In this document: positions 46-58,010 of the stretch, piece by piece
Position numbering within the stretch: the stretch's first letter is position 1
How the letters are laid out: each line of letters starts with the position of its first letter
Source: an uncultured Bacteroidia bacterium
GTDB lineage: Bacteria > Bacteroidota > Bacteroidia > Bacteroidales > Prolixibacteraceae
Assembly (NCBI GenBank): GCA_903918045.1
Contig: CAIXCY010000210.1
Coordinates: forward strand, 1 to 64,000
Direction of reading: 5' to 3'
Length of the DNA stretch: 64,000 bases
Made by a program: the position numbers and the translations under genes
The notes under the pieces: model-generated
The model's input: only the letters and a program-made list of their open reading frames with translations
Database searches by the model: none
Told to the model about the DNA's origin: nothing

Positions 46-304
46 GTCATTGCGAGGCACTCCCCAAAGCTCCTGTAATCTAAACAATTAATCCTTGGAG
101 TACCGAAGTGGCACACTGAGCCTGTCGAAGTGCAATCTTCCGAAATTCATGGTTTATAAATGATTGTCATTCTCACATTTCACTCCTTGATTACAATATT
201 ATATCCTAAAAATTTGTTATAGTTTTTAGTTTGGAGACTTACAATGAAGTCATAACGTCATTACTATTTTTTTTTCTGATTTCAGAATGGGGACTCGCAA
301 TGAC
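46..304. repeat. Non-coding stretch bounded by 11-bp inverted repeats
   Basis: GTCATTGCGAG at 46-56 is repeated exactly as its reverse complement at 294-304. Between them lies AT-rich sequence without a plausible gene, including the segment CACTGAGCCTGTCGAAGTGC near 113-132, a kind of sequence often seen in dispersed intergenic repeats. This looks like a REP/MITE-like dispersed element or its remnant. No transposase is present. The whole 1-467 stretch holds no other feature that I can support. Confidence 0.45.
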
Positions 305-443
305 AGAGCCTGCGGCGACATCTATTTATTCTCACTACATGGCTTAAAGGAAAATCTGAATTTGGACACCAATTTCGCGAAAAAGATGTGCCTATTATCC
401 ATATGACTATAGCCTTAAAGTCCCTCTAAAGAACAGAACACTA

Positions 444-475
444 TTTGCTGAAAGGTAAATTATTATTTACTTTTG
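444..475 (+). promoter_or_regulatory. Bacteroidota-type promoter for hicA
   Basis: TTTG at 444-447 (-33 element) and TACTTTTG at 468-475 (-7 element, consensus TAnnTTTG) are separated by 20 bp. The hicA start lies 21 bp downstream. Both elements match the consensus known for the primary sigma factor of this phylum. Confidence 0.6.
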
Positions 476-496
476 ATTATTAATATACTAATTTAG

Positions 497-688
497 ATGC
501 CAATTAAGTGTTCCGAACTTCATTGGCTTTTAATAAATGACGGGTGGTATGCGGTTTCTCAAAAAGGATCTCATGTAAAGTTGAAGCATGATTTGAAATC
601 AGGTACAATTATATTCCCCAATCACGGAAGCCAGGAGGTTGGTAAAGGCATGGAACGAAAAATACTCAAGGAAGCAGGATTAAAATAA
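497..688 (+). CDS. hicA: HicA-family mRNA interferase toxin
   Basis: A 63-residue protein of the HicA/YcfA type, a small dsRBD-like ribonuclease that cleaves mRNA and is normally held in check by HicB. The catalytic-histidine segment is visible as QKGSHVKLKH (residues 22-31), followed by the typical IIFPNHG strand and a C-terminal GxxRKILKEAG helix. Length and all conserved blocks are those of an intact toxin. A near-consensus promoter lies directly upstream. The gene downstream is only the C-terminal half of hicB, so the toxin appears to lack its normal inhibitor. Assignment to HicA is firm; whether it is active cannot be read from sequence. Confidence 0.85.
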   Translation: MPIKCSELHWLLINDGWYAVSQKGSHVKLKHDLKSGTIIFPNHGSQEVGKGMERKILKEAGLK

Positions 689-908
689 CCGGGAGAAAAA
701 TAAAATTGATTTCAAACAATTCTTTCAATATTATCGGGTTATTAATGCCCGCTTTCTTGCGGAAAAAATCGGTATGAACCCCACGCTGCTATCCCAGTAT
801 GTTCAGGGGAGAAAGAAGCCATCAGAAATGCAAACGGGAAAAATACTGTCAGGAATTCACCAGATTGGAATAGAACTTTCCGAAATAAACCTGATACAAA
901 GACCTTAA
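684..908 (+). pseudogene. hicB: Truncated hicB antitoxin remnant (C-terminal HTH half)
   Basis: The frame is open from 684, overlapping the hicA stop codon, to a stop at 906-908. It encodes a segment typical of the C-terminal DNA-binding half of HicB, with an HTH (ARFLAEKIGMNPTLLSQYVQ), then GRKKPSE and a terminal helix ending in LSEINLIQ. The N-terminal RNase-H-like half that neutralises HicA is absent. The coding match begins about 14 bp after the hicA stop, leaving no room for it. The only in-frame ATG (774) would give 44 residues. This fits an internal deletion of roughly 60-70 codons. It could still encode a small DNA-binding peptide if translated from a non-ATG start. Confidence 0.75.
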
Positions 909-928
909 AAAACAATCAGTCTAAAAAA

Positions 929-970
929 AGGTTGTATCGAAAGACAAATGAACATCTTCTGATACAACCT
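929..970. terminator. Hairpin downstream of the hicAB remnant
   Basis: AGGTTGTATC at 929-938 pairs perfectly with GATACAACCT at 961-970 (10-bp stem, 22-nt loop). The A-run at 923-928 would be a T-run on the minus strand, so it could terminate the minus-strand oxidoreductase gene that ends at 1026, as well as acting after the toxin gene. Confidence 0.45.
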
Positions 971-1025
971 GGAAAATAGATGATAGGAATTTCAATCTTC
1001 TGAAATATCCTTTATTCACTAAAAT

Positions 1026-2375
1026 TCAATATTTAAAAACCTTCCCTCCTGCCATAACCTGCTGGGTTTTCTCATCGAAGGTAGCCCGCTGACCGGTACG
1101 AAGCGCGGCTGAAGTCATTACAATGGCAATGGCATGACTGTAACCAGCCTCAACAGGTGCATTGGTTTTGGTGTTATTTGCCCGAACACAATCCATCCAG
1201 TTTTTCATGTGGGCATTGGTTAATCCATCGGCACCAGTATTTGAGTTGGTCTCAACTTTCTCCTGAGGAAGGACAAATTCTGAAAGCAGATTTTCCTTCA
1301 TACCCATCTCTTTGGCGTATTTCTCTTTTAATCCACCCTCAGAGGTTATCTTATTGGTATCCAGATCAAGCTTACCACCATTAGAAAAATACCACTCTTT
1401 CGTTCCGCCTGCTTCATTAGTCTGACGCGAAGAATAAATCACCTGGAATCCCTCTTCCTTGTTATCCAGCGGGCCGTAATCGAATACGGCGCTCATCGTG
1501 TCAAAATTCCTCCGGCCATCCTTCCAGACATATATTCCCCCATTTGCAGCAACCGACCGTGGATGTGGAAGATGTGAAAACCAGTGTACCGTATCAATCT
1601 GGTGCGACATCCACTGCCCGGGAATACCGGAAGAGTATGGCCAAAAAAGTCTAAATTCCAAATACTTACGGGGATCCCATTTCTCATACGGGCGATTCAG
1701 CAAAAACCGTTTCCAGTCGGTATCTGACTCCTTAATTGATGCCACCTCTTTAACACGTCGCCACCGACCGGGTTGATTTACATTCCAGGTCATCTCAACA
1801 GCGCACATTTTACCAAACTTCCCCTCCTGAATATAATCATGAGCCGCCTGGTAATTAGCGCCTGACCGACGCTGTGACCCAATCTGAACTACCTTACCGG
1901 TCTCTTTAACGGCTTTCTTCGCAAAAATGGCATCATCCATCGTCTCAGCAAACGGTTTCTCACAATAAACATGCATTCCGGCACGAACCGACTGACCACA
2001 TAAAACGGCATGTTGAAAGTCGGCAGTTGAAATAATCACTGCATCCATTTTTTGGTTGTAAAACTCATCGGTATTGTGTGCCTCAAGTGGCGTGGTACCG
2101 TTATGCTTTTTCACCCATTCGATACCTTCACCACGACGCTTGTTCCATATATCGCAGACTGAGGCAAATTCAAAGTTCATCTCTTTTGCATATTTCTGAA
2201 ATGCTAATCCCAGGGCACCTTCAAAACGACCGGAAAAACCAAGAATTCCAACCTGAATACGATCATTTGCACCAAGAATTCTGCCATAACTTTTTGCGCT
2301 CATTCCTATACCACCTAAGGTTAGGCCGGTAGCCCCAATAGCCGATTTCTGAATAAATTCTCTTCTGTTTGACAT
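1026..2375 (-). CDS. Gfo/Idh/MocA-family oxidoreductase, Tat-exported
   Basis: A 449-residue NAD(P)-dependent sugar or inositol dehydrogenase-like protein. The N-terminus carries a Tat-like signal (NRREFIQKSAIGATG), typical of periplasmic members in Bacteroidota. A Rossmann segment begins near residue 40 (IQVGILGFSGR). It is followed by the VYCEKPFAET segment, the characteristic EKP motif whose Lys is usually catalytic, near residue 137. The C-terminal domain contains the HQIDTVHWF helix. The substrate cannot be inferred. It stands alone, with hairpins on both sides and no sugar-catabolic partner adjacent. Family confidence is high; the specific reaction is unknown. Confidence 0.85.
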   Translation of the reverse strand: MSNRREFIQKSAIGATGLTLGGIGMSAKSYGRILGANDRIQVGILGFSGRFEGALGLAFQKYAKEMNFEFASVCDIWNKRRGEGIEWVKKHNGTTPLEAHNTDEFYNQKMDAVIISTADFQHAVLCGQSVRAGMHVYCEKPFAETMDDAIFAKKAVKETGKVVQIGSQRRSGANYQAAHDYIQEGKFGKMCAVEMTWNVNQPGRWRRVKEVASIKESDTDWKRFLLNRPYEKWDPRKYLEFRLFWPYSSGIPGQWMSHQIDTVHWFSHLPHPRSVAANGGIYVWKDGRRNFDTMSAVFDYGPLDNKEEGFQVIYSSRQTNEAGGTKEWYFSNGGKLDLDTNKITSEGGLKEKYAKEMGMKENLLSEFVLPQEKVETNSNTGADGLTNAHMKNWMDCVRANNTKTNAPVEAGYSHAIAIVMTSAALRTGQRATFDEKTQQVMAGGKVFKY

Positions 2376-53023: not shown

Positions 53024-54271
53024 TTAGCCGAACAAAGGCATTAAAAGCAGTACCAACGAGAGCGCTATCAATACAATTACGGCGCTCCAACCTATAATAT
53101 TATTAGTCAGCTTATTCACGTATTTCCCCATGATCTTTTTGTTATTCACTAACAGGATCATACAAACCAGGACAACCGGTAAAAGCATTCCGTTAATTAT
53201 CTGTGACCAAAGTGATATTAAAATTAATGGAGCCTCAGGAATTAAAATAATAGCAGCTCCAATAATCAGGATACCGGTGTAGAGGATATAAAATTCTTTG
53301 GCTTCACTCCACTTTTTATCAATACCTGCTTCAAAACCAAAGGCCTCACACACATAGAATGCTGTTGCCAAAGGCAAAATGGTAGCGGAGAAAATAGAGG
53401 CAATAAAGAGGCCAAAGGCAAATACCTGTGAAGCGAATGCACCGGCAAGTGGTTTTAGGGCCAATGCCGCATCTTTGGCTTCATTAATTTGGATTCCATT
53501 TTCGTGTAAAGTTGAAGCACAGGCGACCATGATAAAGAATGCTACAACAACTGTAGCCACACAACCTACCACAATGTCGATCAGGGTATAGCGGTATTGT
53601 TTCATTTTCAATCCCTTTTCAATCACGGATGATTGCATATAAAATTGCATCCAGGGGGCGATAGTGGTTCCGATTATTCCAATAACCATTGAAATACTTT
53701 TTGCGTTCAATTCCATCTGCGGATGGATTATGGAGTGGCCGATTTCGCTCCAATGGGGTTTCCCCATTATGGCAGAGACGACATACATGAGCAAGGAGAG
53801 GCTAAATAACAAAAAGATACGCTCCGCAATCTTATAGGTTCCTTTAACTACCAGAAACCAAACCATGAATCCAACTATCGGAACCGAAATATATTTACTT
53901 ACGCCAAAGACCTCCATACTTCCAGCTACGCCGGCGAATTCAGTCGTTGTATTGCCAATATCGGCAATCAATAACCCAATAAAAATAAAGAAGGTCACTT
54001 TGACACCGGCATTCTCGCGGATCAGATCTGCCAGCCCTTTACCTGTAACAATACCCATCCGGGCATTCATCTCCTGTATAACCACTAATACTATAAAGGA
54101 AGGGATTAGAGTCCAGATCAGGCTGTAACCGTAAACTGCGGCTGCTACAGAATAGGTGGTTATACCTCCGGCATCATTATCGACACTCCCTGTGATTATT
54201 CCTGGTCCCAATATTGCCAGAAATAATCCTAGTCTTTGGAAAAATGATTTTTTATTCTTAAATATTGCCAT
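53024..54271 (-). CDS. Nramp-like divalent-metal transporter with altered metal site (NRMT-like)
   Basis: A 415-residue polytopic membrane protein with the Nramp/LeuT-type layout. The first helix reads GPGIITGSVDNDAGGITTYS: the canonical DPGN of TM1 is replaced by DAGG, so the metal-binding Asn is Gly. In the sixth helix the canonical MPH is APW (IAPWMQFYMQS), so the Met that favours Mn/Fe is Ala. Such changes are the type described for Nramp-related magnesium transporters (NRMT). The gene is 4 bp downstream of a soluble PRC/MgtE_N/CBS protein, supporting a role in Mg2+ rather than Mn2+ uptake. This is inference. Confidence 0.85.
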   Translation of the reverse strand: MAIFKNKKSFFQRLGLFLAILGPGIITGSVDNDAGGITTYSVAAAVYGYSLIWTLIPSFIVLVVIQEMNARMGIVTGKGLADLIRENAGVKVTFFIFIGLLIADIGNTTTEFAGVAGSMEVFGVSKYISVPIVGFMVWFLVVKGTYKIAERIFLLFSLSLLMYVVSAIMGKPHWSEIGHSIIHPQMELNAKSISMVIGIIGTTIAPWMQFYMQSSVIEKGLKMKQYRYTLIDIVVGCVATVVVAFFIMVACASTLHENGIQINEAKDAALALKPLAGAFASQVFAFGLFIASIFSATILPLATAFYVCEAFGFEAGIDKKWSEAKEFYILYTGILIIGAAIILIPEAPLILISLWSQIINGMLLPVVLVCMILLVNNKKIMGKYVNKLTNNIIGWSAVIVLIALSLVLLLMPLFG

Positions 54272-54275
54272 TCAA

Positions 54276-55544
54276 CTATTTATTGGTTCTCCGTTTCTTA
54301 ATTAAATCTTCAATTACATCATCGATGACAACCATACCTTTTAGTACATTCTTTTTGTCAACTACGGGTATTGCCAATAAATTATATTTGGAAACAATCT
54401 CTGCGACTTCGTTAATTTTTTGATAATCACGCAGGTGCACCGGTGATGGCTTCATGATTTGTCGGATCTGCATTTCCGGTGGTGTGATAACAACATCTCT
54501 TATAGAAAATGTTGCCAACAGAACTTCATTGTCATCGGTAACAAAGAGGTTATAAAGGGTTTCAAATTCCGGCTTTTTATCCCTGAGTTCGGTAAGCACT
54601 TCCTCCATGGTTAAATGCTGGTTAAATGACATCACTTCCGACGACATAATACTTCCAACGGTATGATCCGGATAAACAAGCAATTCTCTCACTTCCTGAG
54701 AAGTAATCTTTTCCATCTCATTGAGCAGCAGTTCCGCTTTTTCGTCTTCGAGGGCATCAAGGATATCGGCAACCTCATCGGCAGGCATCTTATCCAATAC
54801 GTCAGCAGCCTTCTCTATTGAAAGACTTTCGAGGATATGAACCTGAGTTTCGGTATCGAGTTCCTCCATTACATCAGCAGCTTTCTCTTCGTCAAGAGCC
54901 GAGAACACCTCTGCACTAGCTTTTCTACCGAGGTCCTCAATAATATCGGCTAAGTCAGAGGGGTGAAGGGTTTGGAGTTTTGCGTAGCTTTTTGAGAGTT
55001 TAATATTCAGATTGGAGAAATCGATCGTTTCGACATCTTCCCATAAAATAAATTTGGAGGGAATAGATCCCCCAAACAGCCCAACAAGAAATTTCATTGG
55101 CTTGGCGATACCAATTCTGCGCAATAACCCTTCAATCCCTATATCTACAGCAACAGCATAGGTACCGCTACTAATTGTAACTAACCGGACATCATTTACC
55201 CTGACCAATTTGCGGCCGTTAAGGTCCACGATCTGATTATCGAGAACCGCTTCAACCAGATACATACTATTATCAGATTCATCTTTAGGCAATTCGACTA
55301 ACTTGTCACATATGATTGTTATCCTCCCGTCAACCTTCTCTACGTGAAAATTCTCAAAAGAATAGAAACTGATGTTTTTAGAATATTTAAGTTTAACACC
55401 CTTAACAACCGGATGTCCAGTGGGATAATTGGAGGGATCAGGGTCAACCAATAAATCTTTAACGGTACCGAGGTATATACCATTATGATCCAGTACTTTC
55501 TGCCCGATAATGCGGCTTAAATAAAATGTGGTAATTGATGTCAT
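54276..55544 (-). CDS. Soluble PRC-barrel/MgtE_N/CBS protein, likely metal sensor of the transporter
   Basis: A protein of about 422 residues with no transmembrane segment. Two PRC-barrel-like domains fill residues about 5-185 (for example IIGQKVLDHNGIYLGTVKDL). A MgtE N-terminal superhelix follows with repeated AADVMEELD, AADVLDKMPADEVADILDALE motifs (about 195-300), then a CBS pair (about 305-415) ending VVIDDVIEDLIKK. In MgtE these modules sense Mg2+ and gate the channel, but here the pore is missing. I choose ATG 55544: AAGGAGG lies 5 bp upstream of it, whereas the GTG at 55550 abuts the SD. Confidence 0.85.
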   Translation of the reverse strand: MTSITTFYLSRIIGQKVLDHNGIYLGTVKDLLVDPDPSNYPTGHPVVKGVKLKYSKNISFYSFENFHVEKVDGRITIICDKLVELPKDESDNSMYLVEAVLDNQIVDLNGRKLVRVNDVRLVTISSGTYAVAVDIGIEGLLRRIGIAKPMKFLVGLFGGSIPSKFILWEDVETIDFSNLNIKLSKSYAKLQTLHPSDLADIIEDLGRKASAEVFSALDEEKAADVMEELDTETQVHILESLSIEKAADVLDKMPADEVADILDALEDEKAELLLNEMEKITSQEVRELLVYPDHTVGSIMSSEVMSFNQHLTMEEVLTELRDKKPEFETLYNLFVTDDNEVLLATFSIRDVVITPPEMQIRQIMKPSPVHLRDYQKINEVAEIVSKYNLLAIPVVDKKNVLKGMVVIDDVIEDLIKKRRTNK

Positions 55545-55550
55545 AAGCAC

Positions 55551-55578
55551 CTCCTTGCTTTTGTGATACTACAAGGAG
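55551..55578 (-). promoter_or_regulatory. SD-sequestering hairpin in the leader of the metal-transport operon
   Basis: On the minus strand CTCCTTG (55578-55572) pairs perfectly with CAAGGAG (55557-55551), with a 14-nt loop. CAAGGAG is part of the AAGGAGG Shine-Dalgarno sequence of the gene starting at 55544. An AAGGAGG SD is rare for Bacteroidota, whose mRNAs seldom use one. The layout is that of a translational switch in which the hairpin blocks initiation. Confidence 0.6.
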
Positions 55579-55586
55579 CGCATACA

Positions 55587-55650
55587 ACGAATGGCCATCC
55601 TGTGATATCAGGTTAATAAAAATATATCTGCAGGCCCTTCGTCCATTCGT
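55587..55650 (-). promoter_or_regulatory. Structured 5' leader, candidate riboswitch aptamer
   Basis: ACGAATGG at 55587-55594 pairs with CCATTCGT at 55643-55650, enclosing short complementary segments (CCTG/CAGG near 55599-55612). It lies between the TACTTTTG promoter and the SD-sequestering hairpin, so the whole leader of about 110 nt is structured. I recognise no known riboswitch class (it does not fit M-box or yybP-ykoY as I recall them). Confidence 0.5.
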
Positions 55651-55673
55651 TTAAATGATATTGGTTTGCGTCG

Positions 55674-55681
55674 CAAAAGTA
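55674..55681 (-). promoter_or_regulatory. Promoter -7 element of the metal-transport operon
   Basis: The minus strand reads TACTTTTG, an exact TAnnTTTG. It implies transcription starting near 55667 and a leader of about 120 nt to the ATG at 55544. Farther upstream (55682-55904) there is no gene; the sequence there is low-complexity and CT-rich near 55840-55900. Confidence 0.5.
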
Positions 55682-55904
55682 GGTTAATTGTTTTAAGAAT
55701 AAAACAATCTTTAATTATAATTTTAACTAAATTCTAAATTCAGATTTTACGACTTTATCGAGGTGTCTGTTGCTGAAATAGGTTTACAGAAAAAGTAGAT
55801 TAAAACCGGGAAGAATCTTATTCTTCACCATTTCGCCAGCTCGCCTCTTCTCCCCTTCGCTCTCCTGCAGTCGTGCCCTCGTGCAATCGTAATCCTCTCC
55901 CCTT

Positions 55905-58010
55905 TTAACTAATAGATCCCCAATTAAGATGATTTTTTTTCAGTGCGATTAATTGTTTTTTAAGGATATCATTCTGAGGTTTTTCAAGCGAGGGATCATC
56001 CGATATAATTGATTCGGCAATATCCCTGGCATATTGAAGGATCTGACCGTCTTTGGCAAGATTGCTTATCTTCAGATCGAAGGCTATTCCACTTTGCTGA
56101 GTACCTTCGATGTCCCCGGGACCCCGAAGTCGCATATCTGCCTCCGCAATCTCGAAGCCATCATTTGTGGCAACCATCGTTTCAATTCTTTTACGGCTTT
56201 CGGCGCCCAATTTAAATCCGGAAAGCAATATGCAGAAGGACTGTTCAGCGCCCCGCCCTACCCTTCCGCGCAATTGATGGAGCTGTGACAGGCCAAATCG
56301 CTCGGAACTTTCAATAATCATTACCGATGCATTCGGCACATCAACACCCACTTCAATAACAGTGGTAGCAACCAGAATCTGGGTTTCCATGCTTTTAAAA
56401 CGTTGCATTTCGAGATCCTTAGCGGCGGGTTTCATCCGGCCATGAACCATCCCAATCGCATAATCAGGTGAAGGAAACAATTTTATAATTTGCTCGTACC
56501 CTTCCTCCAGGTTTTTATAATCCATCTTTTCAGATTCTGAAATCAGTGGAAACACGATATAGATTTGCCTTCCCTCAGCGATCTCTTTACGAATAAAATC
56601 GTAGACTTGAGCCCGCCTATTCTCAAAATAATGGACCGTTTTGATCGGTTTACGTCCCGGAGGAAGTTCATCAATGACAGAAACATCCAAATCCCCATAA
56701 ACTGTCATGGCCAGGGTTCGTGGAATCGGAGTTGCAGTCATAACAAGGATGTGAGGAGGAACAAAATTCTTACGCCACAATTTTGCACGCTGGGTAACTC
56801 CAAAGCGGTGTTGTTCGTCGATGATTACCAATCCCAAGGACTCAAACTGAACAATATCTTCCAGCAAAGCATGAGTACCAATCAATAAATGGAGGTTTCC
56901 ATTCAAAAGCTCACCGTGAATAATCGCACGCTCCCCTTTTTTTGTTGATCCCGTTAGTAGTTTCACCTTTACAGCCATATCACCCAGAAATTTCTGAATC
57001 GAGAGATAGTGCTGATTGGCCAGTATTTCTGTTGGTGCCATAAAACAGCACTGAAAACCATTATCTAAAGCGATAAGTACAGACATTAATGCGACCATTG
57101 TTTTTCCGCTCCCAACATCCCCCTGCAGCAACCTGTTCATTTGCCTCCCTGTCCCCATGTCTTTGCGGATCTCCCTGATGACCCGTTTTTGGGCGCCTGT
57201 TAGCTCGAAAGGAAGGTGATTAAAATAAAAATCGTTGAAATAATTTCCAACCTTTGTAAACAGATGACCCTTAAATTTTTTATGTCGATCCTCCTTTAGG
57301 TGAAGCAATTTCAACTGGATATAGAACAACTCCTCAAATTTGAGTCGATATTCCGCTTTTCGCAGGATCTGAGGGTTTTCCGGAAAGTGAATAGTTATCA
57401 ATGCCGATTCCAGGCTAACCAACCCAAGTTTCTGCACCAACCATGAGGGCATGGATTCATAAATACTACCGCGGACCAGTTGCAGTGCTGCATATTGAAG
57501 TTTAAGGATATTTTTGGAGTGAATAAAATTGGTTTTCAGCTTCTCGGAAGTATTGTAATATGCCTGGATAAACCCCTCTTTTTTAGACTGATCAGCGAGA
57601 TTCTCATCCAGCTCGGGATGGACAATGCTAAACTGCCCGTTAAATTCACCCGGTTTCCCAAAAACGATATATTCCACATTAAGCTTAATGGTCTGAGTGA
57701 TAAATTTTATCCCCTGAAACCAGATCAGTTCCAGAATTCCAGTGCCATCAGTCAGGTAGGCGACCAAACGCTGATTACGTCCGACACCAATAAGTTCTGA
57801 ACCTGTTATCCTTCCCCTGACCTGTATGTAAGGCAAGGATGTGTCAATCTCACGGATAGTATAAAACTTAGTCCGGTCGACATACTTAAATGGAAAATAG
57901 TAAATCAGATCACCGAGTGTAAAGACCTTCAGCTCCTGATTTAATAGCACGGCCTTGCGGGGGCCAACTCCCGGAAGAAATTTAATATCCTGTGATAGTA
58001 TTCCCGACAT
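55905..58010 (-). CDS. recG: ATP-dependent DNA helicase RecG
   Basis: A 701-residue protein that remodels stalled replication forks. The N-terminal wedge domain is in residues 1-250, with GVGPRKA and the OB-fold block YIQVRGRITG near 61-70. The helicase core carries Walker A GDVGSGKT at 297-304, DEQH (Walker B-type box), and motifs such as LVMTATPIPRTL and QLRGRVGRG. Length and motif order match bacterial RecG. It is divergent from the methyltransferase-like gene; its downstream neighbour is the metal-transport operon. Confidence 0.95.
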   Translation of the reverse strand: MSGILSQDIKFLPGVGPRKAVLLNQELKVFTLGDLIYYFPFKYVDRTKFYTIREIDTSLPYIQVRGRITGSELIGVGRNQRLVAYLTDGTGILELIWFQGIKFITQTIKLNVEYIVFGKPGEFNGQFSIVHPELDENLADQSKKEGFIQAYYNTSEKLKTNFIHSKNILKLQYAALQLVRGSIYESMPSWLVQKLGLVSLESALITIHFPENPQILRKAEYRLKFEELFYIQLKLLHLKEDRHKKFKGHLFTKVGNYFNDFYFNHLPFELTGAQKRVIREIRKDMGTGRQMNRLLQGDVGSGKTMVALMSVLIALDNGFQCCFMAPTEILANQHYLSIQKFLGDMAVKVKLLTGSTKKGERAIIHGELLNGNLHLLIGTHALLEDIVQFESLGLVIIDEQHRFGVTQRAKLWRKNFVPPHILVMTATPIPRTLAMTVYGDLDVSVIDELPPGRKPIKTVHYFENRRAQVYDFIRKEIAEGRQIYIVFPLISESEKMDYKNLEEGYEQIIKLFPSPDYAIGMVHGRMKPAAKDLEMQRFKSMETQILVATTVIEVGVDVPNASVMIIESSERFGLSQLHQLRGRVGRGAEQSFCILLSGFKLGAESRKRIETMVATNDGFEIAEADMRLRGPGDIEGTQQSGIAFDLKISNLAKDGQILQYARDIAESIISDDPSLEKPQNDILKKQLIALKKNHLNWGSIS

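Follow-up and report, generated by a model that had tools for sequence, protein, structure and literature searches.

The DNA analysed here is a stretch of 64,000 nucleotides (the window), and the minus strand of its sequence carries an entire leader together with the operon that follows it. The features of this locus are as follows.

55905-58010, minus strand: recG, on the same strand as the leader, with the operon on the leader's other side
55674..55681, minus strand: promoter-like -7 element TACTTTTG, recognised from the sequence
55608..55646, minus strand: upstream open reading frame (uORF) for a 12-codon leader peptide, MDEGPADIFLLT, stop codon included in the coordinates; recognised from homologous leaders, a codon test and a motif count
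55587..55650, minus strand: outer stem of the earlier note (55587-55594 with 55643-55650), present in the window and without support in relatives
55594..55610, minus strand: region 2, competitor arm for the anti-Shine-Dalgarno (anti-SD) arm, overlapping the uORF stop codon; from duplex prediction, the swap test and its position relative to the stop
55564..55581, minus strand: region 3, the anti-SD arm, partner of region 2 or region 4; from the swap test and alignment
55547..55558, minus strand: region 4, the Shine-Dalgarno (SD) arm, with AAGGAGG at 55556-55550; from the swap test and alignment
54276..55544, minus strand: gene for a protein with PRC, MgtE_N and CBS domains (Pfam), start codon set from relatives
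53024..54271, minus strand: gene for an Nramp-related transporter of NRMT type (Pfam), with the ion-site stretches NDAGG and GTTIAPW

The first operon gene starts at the ATG at 55544-55542 (minus strand), two codons downstream of the GTG at 55550 given in the ORF list. A PRC-barrel domain stands at the N-terminus of its product (54276-55544), in which no match to the MgtE membrane domain was found, and in both respects the protein resembles the MgtE-like partner that has been described in NrmT operons. The solved structure closest to the window transporter was 7QIA (E 1.7e-109; titled a divalent metal cation transporter), which we take to be the Mg2+ transporter EleNRMT, and NDAGG and GTTIAPW were common to both proteins in the alignment. 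The available part of PMC8806188 gives the NRMT motif as DxxG-TxxA/T, and the window transporter carries DxxG on helix 1 and TxxA/T on helix 6. Judged by sequence, the window operon is probably a Mg2+-importer operon, and the PRC, MgtE_N and CBS protein is probably a cytosolic Mg2+-sensing partner.

The earlier note had read the leader as a compact structured RNA, and every element that it named is present on the minus strand. The promoter that it had called clear corresponds to the promoter-like TACTTTTG at 55681-55674 (minus strand). The Bacteroidota -7 consensus is TAnnTTTG, and this string was found no more than 90 nt ahead of the uORF in 48 of the 51 uORF-bearing leaders described below, compared with 174 of 2550 mononucleotide shuffles. 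The 8-bp outer stem pairs perfectly (acgaatgg at 55587-55594 with ccattcgt at 55643-55650, plus-strand letters), and the 7-bp hairpin formed by CTCCTTG (55578-55572) and CAAGGAG (55557-55551) does cover the SD sequence AAGGAGG at 55556-55550. The minus-strand leader was predicted to be more stable than its shuffles, with z = -2.21 for a 141-nt version (6 of 200 equal or better) and z = -3.00 for a 120-nt version (3 of 200 equal or better). The note had been unable to match the leader to a known class, and the whole window was without an Rfam match at the gathering score; the M-box (RF00380) in particular was not found at gathering anywhere in the window, nor up to E 10 in 55400-55800. The only weak match within the leader, to S15-Flavobacteria, lay on the opposite strand with E 3.6 and was taken as chance.

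Homologues of the operon were gathered from related genomes and contigs, and 55 distinct upstream regions were retained after removal of second copies of loci that appeared in both collections and of four cut loci (L043 and L045, in which the 5' gene end is missing, and L015 and L041, with too little upstream sequence). A short putative uORF was present in 51 of these 55 leaders, 93-126 nt upstream of the gene start. Twenty of the 51 were set aside as redundant, leaving 31 non-redundant leaders, and alignment A1 comprised 25 leaders, the other 26 being left out at a protein identity of 60% or less. The Nramp gene lies directly downstream in 44 of the 51 uORF loci, is absent from that place in three (L073, L079 and L082) and was not visible in four. 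In genome G474 the operon genes are separated on two contigs (L079 and L168), each with its own uORF leader: the MgtE_N/CBS gene that no Nramp gene follows has the uORF MDPEPANSWNSPEE, and the lone Nramp gene has MDDLPESILLINFEAEEIL. No uORF was found in the remaining 4 of 55 homologous operons, which keep Nramp (L056, L076, L087 and L088); these leaders also had no M-box at gathering.

The uORFs are conserved at the peptide N-terminus (MDEGPA... in the window) and variable thereafter. Two acidic residues near the start and a single Pro are present in most: Asp2 was found in 49/51, an acidic third residue (Glu or Asp) in 45/51 and Pro5 in 50/51, and 49/51 fit MD[DEGSP]xP, the exceptions being MEEGSS (L017) and MAGDPA (L047). 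The patterns had been written after the sequences were seen. When the 4664 short ORFs of the loci were searched with the strict motif, it turned up 62 times at leaders, counting duplicate loci, and two more times away from them, at a single place present in two copies of one locus; shuffled upstream regions yielded it in 3 of 2550 cases. In the window's own genome four further pattern matches each overlapped a longer open frame and were discarded. Over codons 2-6 of the 31 non-redundant leaders, single-base codon differences, counted pairwise and hence not independent events, comprised 526 synonymous and 365 non-synonymous in the uORF frame; the other two frames gave 261/706 and 238/740. By codon position 1, 2 and 3 the differences numbered 285, 593 and 1192. 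Comparison of the leaders thus indicates that the conserved core is constrained as a putative coding sequence.

Duplex prediction suggested that region 3 (CTCCTTG and the bases downstream of it) can pair with either region 4, the SD arm, or region 2. In a swap test across the 31 non-redundant leaders, native stems were predicted to be more stable than stems with arms exchanged between leaders for both 2:3 (-17.10 vs -10.63 kcal/mol) and 3:4 (-15.22 vs -11.42 kcal/mol), with 0 of 20000 permutations reaching the native value in each case, and the controls 1:3, 1:4 and 2:4 were not significant. When all 51 leaders were used, related ones included, the control 1:3 was reached by 240 of 20000 permutations. 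Stem 1:2, the pairing of the uORF with region 2 in the MgtQ model, was reached by 5745 of 20000, in what is a weak test given that the uORF varies little. Among the 25 aligned leaders, stem 2:3 was formed in 85.3% of cells and 13 cells were doubly changed; its covariation was 0.280 against 0.207 after shuffling (0/500), and sliding it by 1-3 columns lowered formation to 28.7-58.2%; the number of its pairs with double changes (6 vs 3.8) was matched by 31 of 500 shuffles. Stem 3:4 was kept in 88.3% of cells in these 25 close leaders, but without covariation there, and it is over the diverse leader set that the SD hairpin was both conserved and co-varying. Taken together, sequence comparison indicates two co-varying, mutually exclusive stems with region 2 at the uORF end. 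A ribosome terminating on the uORF would cover at least half of the region-2 pairs in 49 of 51 leaders, and for a ribosome at codon 4 this number is zero by construction.

The predicted cost of opening the SD sequence was computed with a ribosome modelled at codon 4, at the uORF stop, or absent. Median costs over the 31 leaders were 5.0, 10.2 and 6.9 kcal/mol, respectively, and, counting only differences above 1 kcal, opening was dearer at the stop than at codon 4 in 46 of 51 leaders and cheaper in 2 of 51. The mean cost with an early ribosome rose from 4.97 to 9.16 when region 2 was shuffled and to 8.98 when it was swapped. For the window leader alone the effect was below average (6.3 kcal/mol at codon 4 vs 11.0 at the stop), and 17.5% of shuffles and 20% of swaps did equally well. 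Predicted absolute opening in the window was 3.6e-5 with the ribosome at codon 4, 1.6e-8 at the stop and 2.4e-6 without a ribosome, such that the SD sequence was mostly closed in all three modelled states. Because absolute opening is low and 17.5% of shuffles equal the native sequence in the window, the argument draws on the leader family and on relative changes.

These observations are best accommodated, with a probability of roughly 0.72, by a uORF-dependent translational attenuator of the Mg2+ importer operon, of the MgtL/MgtQ kind. Leaders of that kind are marked by a short uORF ahead of a Mg2+ transporter, here a putative ORF in 51 of 55 leaders before an NRMT-like transporter; by acidic residues and Pro in the first codons, which are likewise present; and by exclusive RNA structures tied to uORF translation, to which covariation and prediction point in this family. 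A ribosome would initiate on MDEGPADIFLLT. With ample Mg2+ it would read to the uORF stop and cover region 2, and the SD sequence would fold into hairpin 3:4 (OFF). At low Mg2+ the acidic and Pro-containing N-terminus would destabilise or pause the ribosome near codons 3-5 and translation of the uORF would be aborted; region 2, left free, would take the anti-SD arm as stem 2:3 and the SD sequence would be exposed (ON). We infer both that Mg2+ is the signal and that ribosome destabilisation is the sensor; intrinsic ribosome destabilisation was reportedly named in a paper of 2017. Several results speak against this attenuator: predicted absolute SD opening is low, the effect in the window is below average, two leaders run the other way, stem 1:2 is unsupported, stem 3:4 does not co-vary in A1, the double-change count of stem 2:3 is matched by 31 of 500 shuffles, and four operons keep Nramp without a uORF. 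The uORFs also have, for the most part, a single Pro, and one Pro codon is not known to stall ribosomes according to the accessible text of PMC8092293.

Leaders outside the operon were sought with a covariance model (R1) built solely from the 25 leaders and run, with a cut-off of E <= 0.01, on 247 genomes of the order. It returned 30 matches in 28 of the 247 genomes, 20 of them operon leaders by position (training members included) and 10 elsewhere. The gene following these ten further sites was, by Pfam, CorA in six cases, MgtE in two, Nramp in one and an OprB porin in one, such that nine of the ten precede CorA, MgtE or Nramp. All ten carry an MD[DE]xP uORF, a result partly forced by the model. 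The distance from uORF to gene was 87-111 nt in nine, and stems 2:3 and 3:4 could be drawn in the same nine, 2:3 being weakest before the porin. The exception is locus L178 (1513-1766), where the uORF MDDGPETLSDLLNC lies 253 nt before corA, over twice the usual distance. At locus L183 the uORF MDEGPATRLLTVSMER precedes an OprB-family porin gene (127-1506, minus strand), and a uORF leader in this position suggests that Mg2+ uptake may have an outer-membrane component. When R1 was run on 25 relatives, the 15 strong matches were all leaders already known, and a further 24 matches were weak (E 0.007-0.99).

Two other searches in the phylum speak against the attenuator. No M[DE]xxP-type short ORF was seen in any of the 14 loci examined, of 16, that hold full-length MgtE genes of Bacteroidota found by protein similarity, the start codon being set as the first ATG of the frame. 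The strict pattern occurred in 35 of 370 genomes of the phylum, once in each, compared with 14 matches for a reversed control pattern, and the 30 of 35 matches examined contained no leader beyond two already known (L194 and L220). ORFs at least 54 codons long held 25 of these 30, and short ORFs the other five. Matches at L195-L203 and L205-L209 fell in a long open frame containing MDDA-P-[IL]RRG, from another class of the phylum, and were dismissed as ordinary coding sequence; the short-ORF matches at L204, L215 and L223 overlap longer open frames and were rejected as well.

One homologous leader, L047, comes from genome G861, which we take to belong to Bacillota; L047 is the same place as L095 and is counted in both sets. 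The operon protein was found in 27 of 299 genomes of that phylum, and an Rfam scan placed an M-box upstream in 21 of 29 loci (L096-L124). A uORF fitting a loose pattern was present in 19 of 29 upstream regions (L095-L124 without L117, where the match starts at residue 89), compared with 110 of 2900 shuffles, and of the 21 operon leaders with an M-box, 17 have the uORF as well. Nramp follows in 25 of the 29 loci; it does not in L122 and L124, and it was unseen in L095 and L119. In a swap test with 12 of these leaders (7 of the 19 left out, 5 as redundant and 2 as failing the region rule; L116 and L123, with empty or one-base regions, are not among the 12), native stems were again predicted to be more stable than swapped ones (2:3, -21.46 vs -13.00; 3:4, -17.82 vs -11.67; each 0/20000), and the control 2:4 was without a swap effect in these 12. 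Region 2 starts before the uORF stop in all 12; therefore, a ribosome aborting early would not reach it.

M-box loci in the same phylum were also surveyed, with gene identity assigned by eye. Eight of the 30 M-box loci examined, of 47 matches, fit the loose uORF pattern: three before corA-like genes, one (METDPGRS) before an mgtE-like gene, one in the operon, and three odd matches that were taken as chance. The M-box leaders of corA-like genes at L143, L145 and L151 share the conserved uORF MDDP[DE]ADL, with third-position changes. Stems in the corA leaders of this phylum were weak (-8.4 and -7.2 kcal/mol in L143; -12.1 and -12.4 in L145), and no switch is claimed for them. Sequence comparison indicates that the uORF leader is associated with Mg2+ transporter families.

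A leader-peptide attenuator responding to another signal (charged tRNA-Pro, a ribosome-targeting compound or Mn2+) could draw on the switch itself, which is silent on the signal, on the near-invariant Pro5 and on the NrmT outgroup member that, in the available part of PMC4072509, restored Mn2+ transport and Mg2+ transport only weakly. Against it stand the presence of just one conserved Pro codon; the NRMT ion-site motif of the transporter; and the recurrence of the uORF before three Mg2+ transporter families and behind M-boxes. Mn2+ or charged tRNA is less likely as the signal because of these CorA, MgtE and M-box contexts, and we consider the alternative as a whole unlikely.

We regard as quite improbable the proposal of the earlier note, a metal-binding riboswitch in which the conserved region is the aptamer, the SD hairpin the expression platform and the ORF incidental. 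Translational riboswitches, too, combine SD sequestration with a competing stem, and the metal-transport context of the operon would suit one. The locus does read as a regulated leader, with a platform that sequesters the SD sequence ahead of an operon for divalent-metal transport, and has co-varying pairs in relatives; the aptamer is not supported. The conserved core varies as a short coding sequence would, the competing arm overlaps the uORF end, and nothing in Rfam matches at gathering. When conserved and co-varying pairs were sought in relatives, as the note had suggested, they were found for the SD hairpin but not for the outer stem, whose native value was reached by 1701 of 20000 permutations with 31 leaders, 648 with the 25 closest and 795 with all 51. 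That stem pairs with the uORF start region and, among eight genomes compared, is strong in the window genome only. An RNAalifold consensus of the 25 leaders held 6 pairs, none with double changes; this low number probably arises because two exclusive stems share region 3. Ribosome-mediated Mg2+ sensing therefore appears, on this analysis, more likely than a metal-binding riboswitch.

Least probable of all is simple inhibition by the SD hairpin, or translational coupling, in which the uORF would supply ribosomes and no sensor would exist: the uORF is close to the gene and the hairpin is there, yet conservation of the peptide is confined to its N-terminus, and stem 2:3, superfluous under such a scheme, co-varies.

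The leader is real and regulatory; on present evidence it is not a new aptamer, and it is probably a variant of the Mg2+ leader-peptide attenuators. A broader proposition, to which we give slightly better than even odds, is that MDxxP-type Mg2+-sensing leader peptides control unrelated Mg2+ transporters (NRMT, CorA and MgtE) by translational attenuation in Bacteroidota and Bacillota, alone in Bacteroidota leaders and in tandem with an M-box in many Bacillota leaders, where one leader would hold two Mg2+ sensors, one RNA and one ribosome. Titles and abstract openings in the open literature contained no description of uORFs of this type, either in Bacteroidota or upstream of NRMT genes, a search outside which most subscription papers fall and in which absence is not proof. 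In the available portions of the literature cited here, Mg2+ leader peptides acting via ribosome stability have been worked out experimentally in E. coli and Salmonella only. If the proposition is true, the translating ribosome would be a general Mg2+ sensor, through ancient use or repeated invention. The leader set offers natural sequences with which to examine what residues at a peptide's N-terminus destabilise ribosomes, and the leader signature may help to call the Mg2+ specificity of Nramp-related transporters.

The window leader was compared with known systems as described in the accessible parts of the papers cited. A gammaproteobacterial corA motif has been named as a riboswitch candidate (PMC6429828). 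The M-box (RF00380), like the window leader, precedes Mg2+ transporter genes, Nramp-related ones included (PMC4072509); unlike it, the M-box is absent from the window, and in the phylum of G861 the putative uORF switch sits between the M-box and the gene. The mycobacterial M-box leader (PMC12810186) resembles the window family in having a conserved uORF and a platform of SD, anti-SD and anti-anti-SD arms; there the M-box controls the uORF, and the peptide is described as mycobacteria-specific. MgtQ, located before mgtB in Salmonella, is likewise a tiny acidic uORF upstream of a Mg2+ transporter gene, with acidic codons 2 and 5 and alternative stems 2:3 and 3:4, the latter holding the ribosome-binding site, that exert translational control (PMC8092293), an arrangement that is predicted for the window. 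It differs in lying between two genes of an operon and in pairing its uORF (region 1) with region 2 (PMC8092293), a pairing that is unsupported in the window family, in which region 2 and the end of the uORF overlap. The same paper mentions an mgtQ-like ORF in some other Proteobacteria (PMC8092293); MgtQ belongs to a different phylum from the window leader, and no sequence homology is claimed. MgtL, which precedes mgtA in E. coli and Salmonella, shares with the window an acidic and Pro-containing N-terminus (EPDP) and a Mg2+ transporter as its target (PMC11282234, PMC11552253). Low Mg2+ causes ribosome drop-off at EPDP; refolding of the mRNA and transcription of mgtA follow (PMC11282234). Efficient uORF translation thus represses and drop-off at low Mg2+ induces, which is the logic proposed here for the window, with the difference that the output of MgtL is Rho-dependent transcription termination (PMC11282234, PMC11552253) and the visible output in the window is sequestration of the SD sequence.
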